DNA of 64,000 bases from Hellea balneolensis DSM 19091. Lineage in GTDB: Bacteria; Pseudomonadota; Alphaproteobacteria; Caulobacterales; Maricaulaceae. Position numbers and translations under genes: made by a program. Below are positions 29,147 through 64,000 of the stretch, one piece after another; within the stretch, counting starts at the first letter, position 1; each line of letters opens with the position of its first letter. The stretch lies in contig NZ_KE386760.1 of the NCBI RefSeq assembly GCF_000428525.1, forward strand, positions 1-64,000, in the 5' to 3' direction. Under the pieces are notes generated by a model. It ran no database searches, was not told the DNA's origin, and saw nothing but the letters and a program-made list of their open reading frames with translations.

Positions 29147-30139
29147 ATGAAAACTGAATTTGACGTATTAGGTATCGGTAATGTGCTGATGGATATTATT
29201 GCGCCTGTAAAGGATGCGTTCCTCACGGATAATCATGTTGAAAAAGGATCTATGACTCTCATCGATGAGCCGCGAGCTTTGGCGCTTAACAACGCGCTCA
29301 AATCTGCTGGCGATATTCAAGAAATAGCGGGCGGCTCTGCGGCCAACACAATGTTTGGCATTGGCGCCCTTGGTCTTCGCGCCGCTTATCTTGGCAATGT
29401 GGCTGATGATGGCGTCGGACGGCGGATTAGCGCAGGACTGGCAGAAGGCGGCGTTGATTTTTCCAGTAAACCCAAAACAAGCGGCCCGGCCAGTGGGCGT
29501 TGCCTGATTGCAGTCACGCCAGATGGAGAGCGCTCCATGAGCACCTTCCTCGGCACATCATGTTTATTCACACCCAAAGATATCGTAAAATCCAAAGTCG
29601 AAAGCGCGGCCTGTGTTTATCTCGAAGGCTATCTCTTTGATACAGAACCCGCCAAAGCCGCCTTTGTCAAAGTGGCCGAAATTGCCCGCGCGGCAGGACG
29701 CACCGTCTCGCTCACCTTATCAGATAGCTTCTGTGTGGATCGCCACCGTGCAAGCTTCCGACAGCTTGTGGATAACCATGTGGATATCTTGTTCGCAAAT
29801 ACAGATGAAATCCTCAGCCTTTATGAAACCGACAGCCTCGATAAAGCGCTCGATGAGCTCATCAAAACAAAAACTGTGGCCTGTGTAACCCGCAGTGAAA
29901 AAGGCTCTGTTATTCAAGACGCAAAGCGCCGCTATCACGTAAAAGCTATTCCTGTGGATAAAATTGTGGATACAACGGGAGCTGGCGACCAATATGCAGC
30001 AGGCGTTTTAGCAGGCCGCGCAATGGGATTGGATTGGGCGGATGCCGGACATTTAGGCAGCCTCGCCGCCGCCGAAGTCATAAGCCATTATGGCGCGCGG
30101 CCCGAGACACCTATCCATGCGCTTGCAATTGGTCGTTAG
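29147..30139 (+). CDS. Adenosine kinase, PfkB family
   Basis: A 330-residue ribokinase-fold sugar/nucleoside kinase. It has the signature VDTTGAGDQYAAGVLAG with the catalytic Asp, and the substrate motif GGSAANTMFGIGALG. It phosphorylates adenosine to AMP in the salvage pathway by analogy with close alphaproteobacterial homologues; other PfkB substrates are possible. Confidence 0.87.
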   Translation: MKTEFDVLGIGNVLMDIIAPVKDAFLTDNHVEKGSMTLIDEPRALALNNALKSAGDIQEIAGGSAANTMFGIGALGLRAAYLGNVADDGVGRRISAGLAEGGVDFSSKPKTSGPASGRCLIAVTPDGERSMSTFLGTSCLFTPKDIVKSKVESAACVYLEGYLFDTEPAKAAFVKVAEIARAAGRTVSLTLSDSFCVDRHRASFRQLVDNHVDILFANTDEILSLYETDSLDKALDELIKTKTVACVTRSEKGSVIQDAKRRYHVKAIPVDKIVDTTGAGDQYAAGVLAGRAMGLDWADAGHLGSLAAAEVISHYGARPETPIHALAIGR

Positions 30140-38124: not shown

Positions 38125-39833
38125 AACTTAAAGCCACCTTCGATAAAGACCGCTGTCGCTTTTTCTTTTTGCGAGCTGATAATATTGCCTGTCGCCAGAG
38201 GTGTTGTGCGTTCGATATATTGCACGCCCGTTCCAAGGCTAAAGCGTTCAAATTCACGCATGACGCCAAAGACAAATTGATCTGATTTCAGATCGACATT
38301 TTTATCATTGGCATGGCCGTAACTCGCGGTGAAGCCATAAGCCGAGGGCTTCCACGTAATGCCCGCATCATAAGCGGTATAATCTCCATCGCTAAGCGCA
38401 TTATTACTTTGCAAATATGAACCGCCAGCTGTCCAGTCACCGAGCGAGATTTCAAGGCCTGTATTCCACGCTTGCAGATCATCAAATCCGGCCAGAACAA
38501 TTTCGTTTTTGGCCGTGGCATATGTCGCTGTGGCTTCGACCTTGAGGCCATTATCAAATTTACGGTCAAGCGAGAGACCCACTTCCATGACATCTTTGAG
38601 ATCAGGCGCAAGCGTACCAGATTCGTCTTTGCTGTTTTTGCGCACGCAATAATCAACCCCGCAAGCGCGCGCGTTAAAGGCGTAAGACGCGCCGAGCTGA
38701 ACTCCAACACCGATTTTATCACCCAAAAGGCGCGGCGTTGTATAAGTGATTTTCTCAGAAAACCCTGACGCATCATTGACGGTTTTAACGCTGTCCAGAC
38801 CTGTATAGTCGACAGCTGAATTAGAGGCATTGACGATCATTAGGCTCGGTGCGCCCAGAGAGAAGAGATAAGCCGCGCCGTCATCCCGGCCCGCTGTGAC
38901 GTCACCATAAGCGGTGCGCAGGAATAAATGCGCGCTTTCAAGCGCCACCTGTGTTTCCGTCGCGTTGCTGGGGCCACTACTGTAAAACTGTGAGGTATGT
39001 CCACGAAGCCCCGTTGGAACCCCCGCCACCAAAGTGCCGTTACATCCCGCAACACCCGGAGGACAATCCCCAACACGTCCGCCAAAGCCGCGGCGATAAC
39101 GGTCATAATCTTCGCGCAATTCAAGGTTCACGCCATATTCCATACCGCCATCGGTAATAGCGCTGGCCTCAAGCTCTAATCGGCCATGCGCGACAAAATC
39201 AAAATCTTTTTCATCTTCTCCAGCGCGGTCCACAAAAGCCCCACCAATTTTCATAAAGCCCTGCGCCGCAAGCTTAATCCCGCCAAGGCCAAATTTATCA
39301 AGCCATTTATTGCGAGGCTTTCGGGCTTGAGGTGCAGCCGAGAGAGGGGTGGCCGCTTGACGAGGTGCATAATTTTGAGCTGTAGGAGCTTGATACTCAT
39401 ATTGGCCTTTTTCACGGCCCGGATAATAAGCTCCGCTATCAGAGGCCGCGGGTGCACTGCCGGCAAGCTCTTCGGAGCCATAGGTCTTAGAGCCATAAGT
39501 CTTAGAGCCATAAGTGCTCTCTGTTTTAGGCTGATAATTATAGCTACTGCTTTCAATTTGATTTCGCGCCGTGTCTTGCAGGGAGTTCGTGCTTGGCGTG
39601 ACCGTCAAGGGTTCATCAAAAATTTCGACATCTGAATAAGAGCTGCTACTCGGCGCAATAGAACTCGGCGCGGCAGGAGCGGACGGAACACTATCTTCTG
39701 TCTCCCACGCTTGTTTCTTTGTTTTTTTAGCAAAAGGAGAACTGGTGGTTTGAGCGGTAGCGACAGTCATGACGCCAAGGCCAGAAATCACAAGCGGCAC
39801 AATAAGGGATTTTCCCCGAAAATGAGTTGGCAT
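38121..39833 (-). CDS. Outer-membrane porin-like protein with TYGSK repeats
   Basis: A 570-residue protein with an N-terminal signal region (LIVPLVISGLGVMTVATAQ). A disordered Ser/Pro/Tyr-rich linker of about 150 residues follows, including tandem TYGSK repeats, then a Gram-negative porin-type beta-barrel. Barrel hallmarks are alternating strands such as GGMEYGVNLELREDYDRY, FLRTAYGDVTAGRDDG, VGVQLGASYAFNAR and a terminal aromatic strand ending GGFKF. It should sit in the outer membrane. The long linker ahead of the barrel is unusual; it might reach through the periplasm to peptidoglycan. Confidence 0.88.
   Translation of the reverse strand: MPTHFRGKSLIVPLVISGLGVMTVATAQTTSSPFAKKTKKQAWETEDSVPSAPAAPSSIAPSSSSYSDVEIFDEPLTVTPSTNSLQDTARNQIESSSYNYQPKTESTYGSKTYGSKTYGSEELAGSAPAASDSGAYYPGREKGQYEYQAPTAQNYAPRQAATPLSAAPQARKPRNKWLDKFGLGGIKLAAQGFMKIGGAFVDRAGEDEKDFDFVAHGRLELEASAITDGGMEYGVNLELREDYDRYRRGFGGRVGDCPPGVAGCNGTLVAGVPTGLRGHTSQFYSSGPSNATETQVALESAHLFLRTAYGDVTAGRDDGAAYLFSLGAPSLMIVNASNSAVDYTGLDSVKTVNDASGFSEKITYTTPRLLGDKIGVGVQLGASYAFNARACGVDYCVRKNSKDESGTLAPDLKDVMEVGLSLDRKFDNGLKVEATATYATAKNEIVLAGFDDLQAWNTGLEISLGDWTAGGSYLQSNNALSDGDYTAYDAGITWKPSAYGFTASYGHANDKNVDLKSDQFVFGVMREFERFSLGTGVQYIERTTPLATGNIISSQKEKATAVFIEGGFKF
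39475..39519. repeat. Three tandem 15-bp units in the porin linker
   Basis: Units GAGCCATAGGTCTTA, GAGCCATAAGTCTTA and GAGCCATAAGTGCTC lie head to tail and encode TYGSK/TYGSE on the minus strand. Being a multiple of three, copy-number change would alter linker length without a frameshift. Confidence 0.85.
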
Positions 39834-54660: not shown

Positions 54661-55092
54661 TTAAAACGGTTTTACAATAGCCATAATAACAATGATGATT
54701 GTAAAAATTGCCGGGACTTCATTGATCTTGCGAAAGAATTTTTCTGATTTTGGACGCCCGCCAGCTGCAAAGAGTTTACGTTGCTTGGAAAGAAAACCGT
54801 GATACCCCATCAAAGCAAAAACCAATAGCAATTTTACAGGAAGCCAGATGGAGCCTGTCAAATTTGCAGCATTATATCCGAATATTAAAATCATACCCAA
54901 AATAAATGAGACGATCATAGCCGGGTTCATAATAATTCGCATGAGTTTTTCAGCGGCTTCGATCATTTTGGCTTCAAGTTCCCCGCCAGGCGTTGAAGCG
55001 CTATGGTAAACAAAAAGGCGCGGCAGATATAAAAGACCCGCCATCCAAAAGATAACAGCTATTAAATGCAGGGCTTTAAACCACTCATACAT
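54661..55092 (-). CDS. hemJ: Protoporphyrinogen oxidase HemJ
   Basis: A 143-residue membrane protein with four helices. MYEWFKALHLIAVIFWMAGL, LPRLFVYHSAS and MGYHGFLSKQRKLFAAG match HemJ, which oxidises protoporphyrinogen IX late in haem synthesis. The conserved His (ALHLIAV) and Lys/Arg are present. The start at 55092 has GGAG nine bases upstream; an ATG three codons earlier is too close to it. It overlaps the hemE end by eight bases, so hemE-hemJ is one operon. Confidence 0.92.
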   Translation of the reverse strand: MYEWFKALHLIAVIFWMAGLLYLPRLFVYHSASTPGGELEAKMIEAAEKLMRIIMNPAMIVSFILGMILIFGYNAANLTGSIWLPVKLLLVFALMGYHGFLSKQRKLFAAGGRPKSEKFFRKINEVPAIFTIIIVIMAIVKPF

Positions 55093-56119
55093 AATCGCCA
55101 TCTCCTGTTCTAATATGGTTTATAACCGCATGGACATTTTCAATCTTAACATCCGGCGTCACGCCGTGACCTAAATTAAAAATATGCGGTCCGGTTGATG
55201 TCTCAAGTACAGTTTGCACGGCCTGTCTTAAAACATCACCGCCAATTCTCAAGGCAAGTGGGTCTAAATTGCCCTGATAAGGCATATCTTTTGGTAAGAG
55301 CTTTCTAAAGCTGTCCATGGGCATATCTGTCCCTGCCGCAATGGCTGTGATGCCTGTATTTTGCGCATATATAACAGCCTTAAGGCCCCCGCCTCTCGGA
55401 AAGCCTATAATAGGTTTTGTAATACCAGCATCCCTCACTAGATCTATGATTTGGCGTGTTGGTTTAATTACGAGCCTTTCAAAAAGGTCAGGCGAGAGAC
55501 CTTCTGCCCAGCTTTCAAATATTTTAAGAACATCAGCGCCTGCATTGGCTTGGTGGATTAAATAGTCTGCACTGGATATCGCCAAGGCTTGCAACAGATC
55601 ATCCATAGCTTCAGGGTTTTCATAAGCAAACCGTTTAGCTATTTCTTTTTTTGGACTGCCCTGCCCTTCAATCATATAAGTTGCTACCGTCCAGGGGCCA
55701 CCGCAAAATCCGATAAGGGCTTTTGAGGGATCAAGCTTAGCTCTTACTTTTGAAACTGTTTCATATACGGGCGAAACACGCTCCGCTGCACCTTCAATTG
55801 TAAGCTTTGCAATATCAGAAACAGTTATAGGATTGAGCTGTGGGCCCTTACCTTTAACAAACCAGACATCCCGTCCTAGTCCTATGGGGATAAGCAAAAT
55901 ATCTGCAAACAGAATAGCCGCGTCCATATCATATCGGCGGATAGGTTGAAGAGTCACTTCAGCCGCCTTATCGGGAGAAAAACAAAAATCTATAAAGTTT
56001 TTAGCTGTCGCGCGAACCTCTAAATATTCAGGTAGATGACGCCCGGCTTGACGCATCATCCATATTGGCGGGATATCAAGTCTTTCGCCCGATAAGACTT
56101 TTAAAAGAGAGGACGTCAA
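55085..56119 (-). CDS. hemE: Uroporphyrinogen decarboxylase
   Basis: Converts uroporphyrinogen III to coproporphyrinogen III. The 344-residue TIM barrel has PPIWMMRQAGRHLPEYLEVR, CFSPDKAAEVTLQPI, GFCGGPWTVATYMIEGQGS and FNLGHGVTPD. The hemE 5' side adjoins the putative oriC, as in Caulobacter, where a hemE promoter lies within the origin. Confidence 0.96.
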   Translation of the reverse strand: MTSSLLKVLSGERLDIPPIWMMRQAGRHLPEYLEVRATAKNFIDFCFSPDKAAEVTLQPIRRYDMDAAILFADILLIPIGLGRDVWFVKGKGPQLNPITVSDIAKLTIEGAAERVSPVYETVSKVRAKLDPSKALIGFCGGPWTVATYMIEGQGSPKKEIAKRFAYENPEAMDDLLQALAISSADYLIHQANAGADVLKIFESWAEGLSPDLFERLVIKPTRQIIDLVRDAGITKPIIGFPRGGGLKAVIYAQNTGITAIAAGTDMPMDSFRKLLPKDMPYQGNLDPLALRIGGDVLRQAVQTVLETSTGPHIFNLGHGVTPDVKIENVHAVINHIRTGDGDYV

Positions 56120-56282
56120 TGTTTATGCACCATTTTGCCAATAAAATTTCTTCCCTCTTAAAAGAAAAATATAAGGAGTGATAGTATTAGAGATGTGACA
56201 ATGTGGACGAGATTAACACTTTAGTAACCAATCTTAATATTAAGGGTAATGCTTGGGATTATTCGCAATATTAGTTTTTGGA

Positions 56283-56298
56283 AGAAAACTTATACAGT
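56283..56298 (+). repeat. Origin direct repeat, copy 1
   Basis: AGAAAACTTATACAGT, followed after two bases by the DnaA-box-like TGTGAATAA. An identical copy lies 89 bp to the right. Confidence 0.85.
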
Positions 56299-56371
56299 TA
56301 TGTGAATAAGGTATTTTTTATAGGCTAGAATTGTCATTAAGGCACGAATGAGTTTGTGGATGGATTTTAGC

Positions 56372-56387
56372 AGAAAACTTATACAGT
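56372..56387 (+). repeat. Origin direct repeat, copy 2
   Basis: AGAAAACTTATACAGT, identical to copy 1, followed at once by the DnaA-box-like CTATTCACA in the opposite orientation. Confidence 0.85.
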
Positions 56388-56529
56388 CTATTCACAGGAT
56401 TAATAATCACAGTGTTAAGATGCGGATGATTTAGTATGAGCTAAAATTTATGTTCAAGAGATTCACATTCAAGCGTTAGATATAACACTATGTGTGGACA
56501 AATTTGGATAAGCCCCTCTAGAAAGAGCT

Positions 56530-57372
56530 ATGTCAGTTCCAAATAAATCTATTGCCATATATTTTCATGTTCATCTTGTCTCAGATTCCACAGGGGAAAC
56601 ACTTGTCGCAATGATGAAAGCTTCGACGGCGCAATTTCGTAATGCAACTGCTCTGGAGCACCTTCATGCTTTGGTGAGATCTGAAAGCCAAATGCTTAAA
56701 ACACTCGATGATATTGAAGCAAAACCGGGTGTTGTTTTATATACATTGGTTAATGAAGAACGGCGCAAAATGCTTGAGAATCATTGCGCTAAGCTAAACA
56801 TTCCCGCTATTTCTATATTGGATCCCACACTCTCTATGCTTGGCAGGTATTTGGGCGCGGCTATGATAAGTGAAGTCGGAGCCCAGCGAACCTTGGACGC
56901 TGAATACTATAACCGTATCGAAGCTCTTGATTACGCAATGGCTCATGATGATGGACAAAATGTTACGGGCCTAAATTCAGCCGATATTATTTTGCTTGGT
57001 ATTAGCCGAACGTCAAAAACGCCAACGTCGATCTATCTTGCGAATAGAGGCTATAAGACAGGTAATATCCCGTTGGTCCCAAATGCGCCTTTGCCAATTA
57101 TATTGGATAATTTTGATAAACCTTTTATTGTTGGCCTTGTAGCCGCGCCTGATAGAATTGTTCAAATTCGAGAGCAACGCTTGGTCGGGCTTCGGCAAAA
57201 TCAACAAACTGATTATACGGATGCTGATCGCGTGCGGGACGAAATGCGTGAAGCTAAGCGTATGTTTGTGCGTAAAGGTTATAAGGTGATAGATGTAACG
57301 AGGAAATCTATTGAAGAAACCTCCGCACAAATTATCAATGCTTATCAGCAATCTGGTAGAGAAACACGATGA
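56530..57372 (+). CDS. ppsR: DUF299 bifunctional kinase/pyrophosphorylase (PEP synthase/PPDK regulator)
   Basis: A 280-residue regulator that phosphorylates and dephosphorylates phosphoenolpyruvate synthase or pyruvate phosphate dikinase using ADP and phosphate. FHVHLVSDSTGETL and the P-loop-like GISRTSKTPTSIYLANRGYK with NIPLVP are diagnostic. It is equivalent to the gene called RP001 beside the Caulobacter origin. Which enzyme it controls is not visible here. It heads an operon; maf overlaps its stop by four bases. Confidence 0.93.
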   Translation: MSVPNKSIAIYFHVHLVSDSTGETLVAMMKASTAQFRNATALEHLHALVRSESQMLKTLDDIEAKPGVVLYTLVNEERRKMLENHCAKLNIPAISILDPTLSMLGRYLGAAMISEVGAQRTLDAEYYNRIEALDYAMAHDDGQNVTGLNSADIILLGISRTSKTPTSIYLANRGYKTGNIPLVPNAPLPIILDNFDKPFIVGLVAAPDRIVQIREQRLVGLRQNQQTDYTDADRVRDEMREAKRMFVRKGYKVIDVTRKSIEETSAQIINAYQQSGRETR

Positions 57373-61051: not shown

Positions 61052-62398
61052 ATGAGCGGTAGTCCTAATGATACAATATTTGCCCTGTCTTCTGCGCCCG
61101 GCCGCGCTGGCGTGAGTGTTTTCCGTGTAAGTGGAGCTCTATCACAATACTGTCTTGAAAAACTGTTGCAAAAGCCGAGCCCTAAACCTCGCATGGCGTC
61201 GCTTAGAAAGCTTTATAACACGGAAAACGACTTAATTGATGAAGCCCTAATATTATGGATGCCCGGGCCCAATAGCTTTACGGGTGAGGATTGCGCTGAA
61301 TTTCAAGGGCATGGTAGCCCTGCGGTTATAGAGGCAATGGCAAAAGCTTTCATGCAACTGGGCCTACGCCAAGCGGAACCCGGAGAATTTACGCGGCGGG
61401 CTTTTGAAAATGGTAAGATGGACCTGACTGAGGCAGAAGGTTTGGCGGACTTGATTGATGCAGAGACTGAAGGCCAGCGAAAGCAAGCGCTTCGCCAAAT
61501 GCAAGGCGGGCTACGCGATCTTTATGAAAATTGGCGTGAGTCACTGCTTGACGCCTTGGCTCAAATTGAAGGGGAGATAGACTTCCCTGACGAGGAAGAT
61601 GTGCCTGATACGCTTTCGCATAAATCGTATCCTTATATTTCAGACGTGGTCAAGAGTATGAAGCAAAGCCTAATGGAGGCTGATAAGGGCGAAGCTATTC
61701 GTCACGGCGTCGAGGTTGCTATTATCGGAAAACCCAATGCGGGTAAATCAACACTTCTTAATGGCCTCGCGGGGCGCGAGGCTGCGATTGTGTCTTCTGA
61801 AGCGGGAACAACACGTGATATAGTGTCTATATATACAGTAATTGCAGGGATTCAGGTTCGCCTTTCTGATACAGCAGGTTTAAGGGAGACATCTAATACG
61901 ATCGAGGCAGAAGGTGTAAAACGAGCTTTAAAACTTGCGAGTGAGGCAGACATACGTGTTGGTGTTGTAGATTCAACACAGCTCAATGACTTGCCTAATC
62001 TCATTAAAAAGCTGATGGAGGATGACATTCTTATCTTTTCTAAAGCGGATCTTCCAGGTCAAGGAGTCCCCAATGTTTCACGTGAAACATATAAAACCCT
62101 GTCTATAGATGCCAATAATGATCTCGATGTGCGCAAGGTCTATGACGTGTTAGAACAAGAGATTATGGAACGCTTCACTATTGGCGATGATGCTGGCCTG
62201 ACACGAGCGCGTCACAAGGATTGCGTGACGCGCGGCCTATCAGCCTTGGAGCGGTCTCTCGAAAAACTTACTCTTGCCCCTGAATTAGCGGGCGATGATA
62301 TTCGAACCGCCCTTTCTGCTGTAAAAGAACTTGCGGGGGAAACAGATATTGAATCCGTTTTTGACCGTATCTTTTCGCGTTTTTGCGTCGGCAAATAA
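61052..62398 (+). CDS. mnmE: tRNA modification GTPase MnmE
   Basis: With MnmG it builds the 5-carboxymethylaminomethyl group on wobble uridine. It has an N-terminal folate-binding domain (SSAPGRAGVSVFRVSGA), FTGEDCAEFQGHGSPAVIEA, and a G domain inserted in the helical domain. The G domain has GKPNAGKSTLLNGL, switch EAGTTRDIV and DTAGLRET. The C-terminal FCVGK holds the conserved Cys. 448 residues. A perfect parS palindrome lies within the coding sequence. Confidence 0.96.
   Translation: MSGSPNDTIFALSSAPGRAGVSVFRVSGALSQYCLEKLLQKPSPKPRMASLRKLYNTENDLIDEALILWMPGPNSFTGEDCAEFQGHGSPAVIEAMAKAFMQLGLRQAEPGEFTRRAFENGKMDLTEAEGLADLIDAETEGQRKQALRQMQGGLRDLYENWRESLLDALAQIEGEIDFPDEEDVPDTLSHKSYPYISDVVKSMKQSLMEADKGEAIRHGVEVAIIGKPNAGKSTLLNGLAGREAAIVSSEAGTTRDIVSIYTVIAGIQVRLSDTAGLRETSNTIEAEGVKRALKLASEADIRVGVVDSTQLNDLPNLIKKLMEDDILIFSKADLPGQGVPNVSRETYKTLSIDANNDLDVRKVYDVLEQEIMERFTIGDDAGLTRARHKDCVTRGLSALERSLEKLTLAPELAGDDIRTALSAVKELAGETDIESVFDRIFSRFCVGK
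62074..62089. other. parS site inside mnmE
   Basis: TGTTTCACGTGAAACA, a perfect 16-bp palindrome identical to the parS consensus bound by ParB/Spo0J. It is translated in frame as part of NVSRET in MnmE, so the protein sequence accommodates the site. Confidence 0.85.
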
Positions 62399-62569: not shown

Positions 62570-64000
62570 ATGTTTCACGTGAAACATTGGGATGTCATAG
62601 TTATTGGTGGAGGTCATGCAGGCTGTGACGCGGCAGCGGCTTCAGCGCGTCTGGGCGCTAAAACCTTATTATTGACGCATAAGCTGGGAACTATTGGCGA
62701 AATGTCCTGCAATCCTGCCATTGGGGGATTAGGGAAAGGCCACTTGGTTCGCGAAATAGACGCAATGGATGGCGTTATGGCCCATGTTGCTGATGCTTCA
62801 GGCATTCAATTTCGCCTGCTAAACCGTTCCAAAGGGCCGGCTGTTCGTGGCCCCAGAACCCAATCTGATCGCCGGCTCTATAAAAAAGCCATGCAGGAGA
62901 CTCTCTCGGCCTATCCTAACCTCACATTGAAGGCTTTGGCGGTGGAAGACCTTCTCGTTAAGAATGGCCGTGTTGTTGGCGTTGAGACACAAGATGGTCA
63001 AAAATTCGCCAGTGAGCACGTTGTTCTGACTACCGGAACATTTTTGCGGGGCGAAATTCATATTGGGCATGAACGCACGCCCGCGGGTCGTTTTGGAGAT
63101 GCGCCGTCTATAGGACTTGCTGACCGTCTTTATGACCTCGGCTTTGATATGGACCGGCTTAAAACAGGCACTCCTGCCCGTATTTCCAAAGCTTCAATTG
63201 ATTGGGCTGCGCTTGATCAACAGGCGGCAGATGACGAGCCTGTGCCTTTTTCATTTATGACAGACGCAATCAAGGTACCTCAGGTGACTTGCGGGATTAC
63301 CCATACAAATGAAGATACGCACCGTGTTATTAGCGATAATATTAAGAAATCAGCGCTTTATGGCGGCGGTATTTCCGGAAAAGGCCCGCGATACTGTCCT
63401 TCAGTTGAAGATAAAGTGGTTCGTTTTGCTGACAGAAACCGCCACCAAGTCTTTCTAGAACCTGAAGGCCTGCCTGAAAACCCGGATGGAGATACGATAT
63501 ATCCTAACGGCATATCAACCTCCTTGCCCCGTGATTTACAAGACGCTTTTATGCGAACGATCAGGGGACTCGAAAATGTTGTTGTTAAACGCTATGGTTA
63601 CGCCATTGAATATGATTATGTCGATCCGCGTGAGTTACGCGCAACCTTGGAAACCCGCCGATTACCGGGCCTCTATTTAGCGGGACAAATTAACGGTACA
63701 ACCGGTTATGAAGAGGCGGCAGCGCAAGGCATGATGGCGGGTTTCAATGCTGCTCTCGCCGCCTCAAGCTCTGATCCTTTTATTTTGGACCGAAGCCAAG
63801 CCTATATTGGCGTGATGATAGACGATTTAATTACCAAAGGTGTCACAGAACCCTATCGGATGTTTACAAGCCGCGCCGAATATCGCCTCTTATTGCGGGC
63901 CGATAATGCCGATCAGCGTTTAACACCATTGGGCGAAAAGATTGGGGCTGTGAGTTCTCGGCGCTCCAAGGCCTTCGCTAAAAAGCTAAAAACGCTTAAA
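62570..64000 (+). CDS. mnmG: tRNA uridine-5-carboxymethylaminomethyl synthase MnmG, 3' end outside window
   Basis: FAD-dependent partner of Mnm[21 protein letters not shown] binds FAD, and [50 protein letters not shown] and [19 protein letters not shown] are signatures. 477 codons are visible without a stop. The start is uncertain. ATG at 62570 has GGAG too close, and an in-frame ATG lies at 62564. A GTG at 62579 has GGAG at good spacing and would begin [11 protein letters not shown]. The parS site overlaps these starts. Confidence 0.95.
62571..62586. other. parS site over the mnmG start
   Basis: TGTTTCACGTGAAACA, identical to the copy at 62074 and to the parS consensus. It covers the first codons of mnmG (read as FHVKH). 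Two perfect copies within 500 bp, about 6 kb from the putative origin, indicate a ParB-binding centromere. parA/parB themselves are outside the window. Confidence 0.9.

Follow-up and report, generated by a model that had tools for sequence, protein, structure and literature searches.

The question raised by this locus is whether the DNA between hemE and ppsR in Hellea balneolensis serves as the chromosomal origin of replication and, if so, by which elements it would be opened and controlled. In the literature, no description of a Hellea replication origin was found. The DNA analysed, hereafter the window, corresponds to the initial 64 kb of C4, a contig of 234,972 bp in an assembly of 3.21 Mb with 10 contigs. 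The first-pass annotation had pointed to an AT-rich, non-coding gap of 410 bp between hemE and the DUF299 gene; the hemE-ppsR intergenic gap indeed spans exactly 410 bp (56120-56529), is non-coding and separates two divergent genes. Its GC content of 0.320 is to be compared with 0.43-0.51 for the 10-kb blocks of C4, the gap being richer in AT than its surroundings. From the evidence presented below, this gap is almost certainly oriC in a Hellea-like bacterium of the order Caulobacterales and belongs, as one would expect of such an origin, to the hemE/COG1806 kind. The features discussed are collected in Table 1.

Table 1. Features of the hemE-ppsR gap and its neighbourhood (positions in the window; boxes and box-like positions are counted over the rows of the gap alignment)
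Feature	Position	Strand	Remarks
hemE, uroporphyrinogen decarboxylase, left boundary gene	55085..56119	-	TTG start; TIGR01464 373.7 bits, above cut-off; PF01208
Proposed oriC, 410-bp gap	56120..56529	.	GC 0.32; 9 DnaA-like boxes vs 1.8 expected; hemE/ppsR synteny in 62/64 loci
AT-rich stretch past the trios, probable duplex unwinding element	56133..56172	-	AT 0.78 over 40 bp
DnaA-trio-like array, six triplets CTA ATA CTA TCA CTC CTT	56173..56190	-	opposite strand 3'-GAT TAT GAT AGT GAG GAA-5'
Second TGTG core, lying between the trios and the box; perhaps a weak tandem box	56194..56197	-	G at 56197 in 34/34 rows
DnaA box TCGTCCACA, presumed platform for unwinding	56202..56210	-	11 bp from first trio; up to 2 mismatches in 18/34 rows
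CtrA site 1 (predicted) TTAACACTTTAGTAA	56213..56227	.	one mismatch; starts 2 bp beyond box 56202-56210
CtrA site 2 position	56234..56248	.	21 bp further on; degenerate in this genome, only first TTAA kept
23-nt direct repeat, copy 1	56276..56298	+	copy 2 at 56365-56387, 89 bp on; 91% identical
DnaA box TTATTCACA	56301..56309	-	box-like in 17/34 rows
DnaA box CCATCCACA	56355..56363	-	box-like in 19/34 rows
Two abutting direct DnaA-like boxes TTATACAGT + CTATTCACA	56379..56396	+	box scan, alignment rows
DnaA-like box TCATCCGCA	56421..56429	-	box-like in 20/34 rows
DnaA box TTGTCCACA, adjoining ppsR	56493..56501	-	33/34 rows, best conserved box
DnaA-like box TTATCCAAA	56503..56511	-	box-like in merely 5/34 rows
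ppsR (DUF299/COG1806, RP001 orthologue), right boundary gene	56530..57372	+	NF003742 315.9 bits; PF03618
parS site	62074..62089	.	the assembly has three perfect sites, of which this is one, all at C4 62074-64491
parS site	62571..62586	.	start of mnmG-like ORF; third perfect site at C4:64476, beyond the window

Profile matches identified hemJ and rho to the left of hemE, and maf-like, aroE, coaE, dnaQ and mnmE genes to the right of ppsR. One ORF to the right of the gap, recognised by eye from its sequence, is presumably mnmG. The dnaA gene was located at C4:164129, 108 kb from the gap, and this origin therefore does not adjoin dnaA. Among named records, the nearest ppsR was that of a Hellea sp. 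MAG (L034), with 96% identity, and hemE was found in 37 of the 41 genomes searched. In 62 of 64 loci, a count that takes in 8 duplicates and the locus of the window, hemE and ppsR were divergent and separated by 345-562 bp; in each of the remaining two (L030 and L039), one of the two genes was visible.

The 64 loci (L004-L067, the window's own being L004) yielded 62 gaps, as L030 and L039 lacked the complete pair, and 54 distinct gaps were left when 8 identical duplicates had been removed. Six of 7 further loci were added (in L099, ppsR was not seen), with edges extrapolated from partial matches, which gave 60 gaps in all; loci L104 and L105 were left out of the counts. The 60 gaps were split, by our own division made after alignment, into 23 of the Hellea clade, 11 Litorimonas-like gaps and 26 others. 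Conservation by column or by row refers to an alignment of 34 distinct gaps. Since related gaps are not independent, the counts made across them are not independent either.

On C4, the raw GC skew was -0.020 to the left and +0.036 to the right of the gap, and the raw cumulative-skew minimum was found at 39,304, 17 kb to the left. When third-position skew was calculated for plus- and minus-strand genes separately, values of -0.122 and +0.019 were obtained for 1-39.3 kb (15 and 12 genes), -0.134 and +0.041 for 39.3-56.1 kb (only 5 and 5 genes) and -0.029 and +0.109 to the right of the gap (51 and 55 genes). In their skew, the genes of the stretch 39.3-56.1 kb resemble those of the left arm, and the raw minimum is thus explained away: in this genome, of which C4 was examined, the gene-strand-corrected skew switches at the gap, and the candidate origin near 39 kb suggested by raw cumulative skew was removed by the correction, with 10 genes lying between the two places. 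The switch of skew that the first-pass annotation had named as a check is therefore seen in the corrected skew, which does not put the origin elsewhere, and is not seen in the raw cumulative minimum. In a relative assembled as a single contig (G010), 20 samples of 10 kb were taken, of which 7 were positive at 0.36-1.45 Mb and 9 negative at 1.62-3.07 Mb; the remaining 4, which run from 3.24 Mb across the contig ends to 0.19 Mb, had skews of -0.014 to +0.026. Its hemE gene, at 3.150 Mb, lies between the samples at 3.06 Mb (-0.026) and 3.24 Mb (+0.026). Elsewhere on C4, the block 70001-80000 showed an unusually positive GC skew (+0.157) and a low GC content (0.433), and includes 1222 bp without a long ORF at 78052.

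Only three perfect parS sites are present in the whole assembly (C4:62074, 62571 and 64476), at 5.5-8 kb from the gap, and the best parB match is found at C4:66016, 9.5 kb from it. Two more ParB-like matches, in long frames of 586 and 585 aa, were noted at C2:46171 and C1:663373, away from the parS cluster. The earlier proposal that the gap is the oriC of a Caulobacter relative is supported by the skew, by the position of parS and parB, by the synteny in 62 of 64 loci and by the conserved unwinding-like module described below.

DnaA boxes were defined by their resemblance to TTATCCACA. The gap contains no perfect box, 9 9-mers with up to two mismatches (1.83 expected) and 3 with up to one (0.15 expected), and none of 1000 first-order Markov sequences matched its box counts at either threshold. 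With up to two mismatches, the gap is the densest 410-bp stretch of the 64-kb window and also of the 235-kb C4 (9 boxes; 7 in the runner-up), and it tops the 85 intergenic segments of C4 of at least 60 bp (9 boxes; 5 in the runner-up). With up to one mismatch, it ranks second on C4, a spot at 29.7 kb having 4. The several DnaA-box-like 9-mers reported by the first-pass annotation are consequently denser than the background, at both levels of mismatch. In the alignment, the box position at 56379 (TTATACAGT) is box-like, with up to two mismatches, in 26 of 34 rows and carries three mismatches in this genome; CTATTCACA, the second of the abutting pair, is box-like in 11 of 34 rows.

The cluster at 29734-29973 comprises four DnaA boxes, two of them perfect and two with one mismatch, arranged as two pairs separated by 186 bp, in the ORF of a PfkB-family kinase. 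It was rejected as an alternative origin because it lies within this coding sequence, and it is probably the chance product of repeated GTGGAT codons. In addition, a 139-aa frame at C2:296173-296421 (L002) was observed to match the DnaA profile in its C-terminal part only (350-433 of 437; 38.5 bits).

A scan of the gap for promoters and terminators gave results at chance level (4 promoter-like matches for 3.3 expected), and an Rfam scan of the window returned nothing at gathering score. A plus-strand promoter-like match begins at 56213, within CtrA site 1. The second copy of the 23-nt direct repeat (56365-56387) terminates in a conserved DnaA-box position. The gap contains a single GANTC, and this motif forms no conserved column (at most 6 of 34 rows). 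Similarly, a search for IHF sites (WATCAANNNNTTR, one mismatch) gave no column above 7 of 34 rows, and hence no conserved IHF site.

The 12 best conserved 24-bp windows of the 34-gap alignment start at 56172-56187, with a mean information of 1.11-1.18 for a median of 0.46. Read on the minus strand, this block presents the DnaA box TCGTCCACA, an 11-bp spacer, the triplets CTA ATA CTA TCA CTC CTT and then AT-rich DNA. The basal unwinding system is described as DnaA boxes adjoining 3'-GAT-5' trios (PMC8287927, PMC6669920), with a box-trio spacer that peaks at 10-13 bp and GAT as the commonest triplet beside the box (PMC8287927). The same order of box, spacer, trios and AT-rich DNA is found in the gap, with degenerate trios: 2 of the 6 read GAT, and departures from 3'-GAT-5' occur in trios 2, 4, 5 and 6. 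Conservation is highest in the trio nearest the box (T34/A33/G32 of 34 rows). In the TGTG core that precedes the trios, the three letters other than the G at 56197 are kept in 25-31 of 34 rows; the full 9-mer ATTGTCACA is far from the consensus and the position is box-like in merely 5 of 34 rows.

A search model made of box, spacer and trios, composed only once the conserved block was known, was applied to both strands of C4. The gap gave the best match, with a trio score of 13 of 18; one other place reached a score of 10, without AT-rich DNA. When the gaps were searched automatically one by one, the homologous module came out first in 30 of 34, the exceptions being L006, L011, L053 and L059, and 8 of the 26 more distant gaps gave no match at all. 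Judged from its sequence, the block is likely to be a basal unwinding module.

No exact TTAA-N7-TTAA motif is present in the gap. The conclusion drawn from the exact motif search, that there was no CtrA site, was corrected by the alignment and by a column scan in which one mismatch was allowed. In the Hellea clade, a CtrA motif with up to one mismatch is found at column 56213 in 21 of 23 gaps (6 perfect) and at column 56234 in 17 of 23 (10 perfect), every other column being occupied in at most 3 gaps. In the gap of this genome alone, one such site was found for 0.98 expected; this is chance level, so that the support comes from conservation among relatives that are not independent. The N7 spacer is also partly conserved, with T in 31, 29 and 28 of 34 rows at 56220-56222. 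From start to start, the unwinding box and the first CtrA site are 10-11 bp apart in 16 of the 23 Hellea-clade gaps and 18, 32 and 22 bp apart in L009, L060 and L061; the four others have no module call. The distance is 96-100 bp in L018, L019, L020 and L024 and 117 bp in L017, which belong to other genera of the same family, and in other families the CtrA sites lie elsewhere in the gap.

Two of the 11 Litorimonas-like gaps have a CtrA site with up to one mismatch at column 56213, and all 11 lack a perfect site; in total, they hold 20 one-mismatch sites for 6.8 expected, most commonly at column 56159 (4 of 11). Of the 26 other gaps, 21 carry at least one perfect site, 26 sites being counted for 0.6 expected. 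In these 26 gaps, a spacer of 7 gives 26 TTAA pairs and any other spacer from 2 to 15 at most 4; in the Hellea clade, a spacer of 7 gives 19 perfect sites, compared with 13 for a spacer of 6. In both groups, spacer-7 sites thus outnumber those with all other spacers from 2 to 15. All 9 perfect CtrA sites on C4 lie outside ORFs, the intergenic DNA being also richer in AT. The ctrA gene was recognised on C3 (NF045991, 424.9 bits for a cut-off of 350), by scanning one of seven OmpR-type regulators. In Hyphomonas neptunium, a CtrA ChIP-seq peak is reported to adjoin the origin (PMC7200025); in Brucella abortus, a member of another order, a passage of PMC2877005 reports that CtrA does not bind the origin. 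Gating of this origin by CtrA is, in our view, reasonably probable.

The distances between TTAA half-sites showed a regular pattern. In the Hellea clade, pairs at 11, 21 and 32 bp occur 19, 29 and 9 times, for 2.5-2.8 expected each; in the 26 other gaps, they occur 26, 11 and 6 times, for 0.5 expected each from shuffles, and the remaining TTAA distances average 1.15 pairs in the real sequence. Since a step of 11 bp is simply the spacing within the motif, and 32 is the sum of the other two distances, only the 21-bp distance counts as independent. In other families, these half-sites are located at different places in the hemE-ppsR gap, and the Litorimonas-like gaps have almost no phased pairs (2 at 21 bp). 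Most of eight control words gave no ladder; TAAC and ATTA, which overlap TTAA-type sites, also peaked at 11, but less strongly. Elsewhere in the intergenic DNA of C4, there are 8 TTAA pairs at 11 bp and 4 at 21 bp (mean 2.4), and part of the 11-bp signal is therefore not specific to the origin. In one such stretch (C4:231565-231600), two perfect CtrA motifs lie exactly 21 bp apart, the spacing seen at the relatives' origins. We tentatively propose, as a possibility, that CtrA gating is the rule in the Caulobacterales, rebuilt each time from helix-phased TTAA half-sites (11, 21 and 32 bp) at varied positions, and that the Litorimonas-like branch has largely lost it.

As a whole, the model of an oriC at which DnaA unwinds the DNA from the box at 56202-56210 and CtrA~P exerts its block at 56213-56227 appears very probable. 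Directly observed in the sequence are the signals of location, the DnaA boxes, the pattern of trio-like triplets, a CtrA motif that is conserved, and a ctrA gene; from these we infer how unwinding, helicase loading and blocking by CtrA would take place. DnaA would gather on the boxes across the gap, the best kept of which, TTGTCCACA, is beside ppsR. From the box at 56202-56210, a DnaA filament would extend over the 11-bp spacer onto the trio-like triplets (56190-56173) and open the AT-rich DNA beside hemE, where the helicase would be loaded. By occupying 56213-56227, 2 bp away from the unwinding box, CtrA~P would block DnaA there, and cells that are not replicating would in this way be kept from initiating. 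In most close relatives, a second predicted CtrA site is placed two helix turns further on.

It might be argued that the gap is a mere divergent promoter region for hemE and ppsR, that its DnaA and CtrA sites regulate transcription and that the origin lies elsewhere, for instance at about 39 kb, where the raw cumulative skew has its minimum (39,304). DnaA and CtrA are indeed reported to double as transcription factors (PMC4468827), and the start of hemE is 54-108 bp downstream of the conserved block. This explanation is nevertheless highly improbable: the corrected skew switches at the gap rather than at 39 kb (10 genes between), the parS/parB cluster is nearby, the skew of G010 switches near hemE, promoter-like matches are at chance (4 for 3.3 expected), and triplets at a set distance from a DnaA box are unexpected for a promoter. 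The trio-like block could also be kept for hemE transcription, the opening taking place elsewhere in the AT-rich gap. We regard this as unlikely, since the box-proximal trio, the place at which GAT is reported to be commonest (PMC8287927), is the best conserved one (T34, A33, G32 of 34), the spacer is right, and the gap is the top match on 235 kb with a runner-up that scores lower and lacks AT-rich DNA; the deviation of trios 2, 4, 5 and 6 from 3'-GAT-5' and the 8 of 26 more distant gaps without a module match speak in its favour.

Finally, the origin may be located here, with the DnaA/unwinding module as described, and the conserved TTAA pair may serve another factor, for example at a promoter. 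The motif was fixed before alignment, agrees with print and selects two columns only (the one-mismatch tolerance having been chosen afterwards); its 7-bp spacer is the commonest, the eight control words gave at most a weaker 11-bp peak, ctrA is present in the genome, and in H. neptunium a CtrA ChIP-seq signal is reported beside the origin (PMC7200025). For these reasons we consider the role of another factor rather doubtful, while giving some weight to the facts that the window's site has one mismatch and is alone no better than chance, that the N7 spacer is itself partly conserved, that the site is missing from 9 of 11 Litorimonas-like gaps and that a promoter-like match begins at 56213.

For this marine genus, the proposed assignment gives positions for oriC, for the presumed unwinding site and for the centromere region. 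A conserved CtrA position beside the unwinding box, together with phased half-sites in several families, was not found in print, the work of Shaheen et al. 2009 and Taylor et al. 2011 being represented here by reviews. Provided that the phasing of the CtrA half-sites is genuine, the 60 gaps constitute a natural experiment on the repeated wiring of a cell-cycle regulator onto an origin.

Compared with known systems, the gap resembles the Caulobacter crescentus Cori (hemE / CC0001) in its boundary genes, AT-rich DNA and weak DnaA boxes, and in having CtrA sites, here predicted ones, near DnaA boxes and parS a few kb away, as reported for Cori in PMC1914354, PMC4468827 and PMC6399470. The box layout differs from that of Caulobacter, as the first-pass annotation had anticipated, by the absence of a perfect G-box and by the conserved CtrA motif beside the presumed unwinding box. 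Unlike in Cori, the perfect G-box TGATCCACA occurs in none of the 60 gaps compared, and the 23 Hellea-clade gaps hold 67 sites within one mismatch of TTATCCACA versus 11 of TGATCCACA. Furthermore, one near-consensus CtrA site is found here, whereas Cori has five, and Cori differs by its IHF site, for which no conserved counterpart was seen here; in our view, the IHF site is a regulatory trait of Cori and is unnecessary for origin identity. With the Bacillus subtilis oriC, the gap shares a box, an 11-bp spacer (reported peak 10-13), a trio array and AT-rich DNA in the same order; in contrast to B. subtilis, the second box of this genome is a TGTG core alone, 4 of 6 trios deviate from 3'-GAT-5', and a CtrA motif abuts the box. 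Hyphomonas neptunium, in the wider group, is similar in having CtrA at or beside its origin (PMC7200025), the likeness on the side of Hellea being one of sequence motif. For comparison with H. neptunium, four gaps of family f2 and three Henriciella/Hyphomonadaceae MAG gaps carry sites, within one mismatch, that begin at gap positions 141-147 and are spaced by 31-32 bp.
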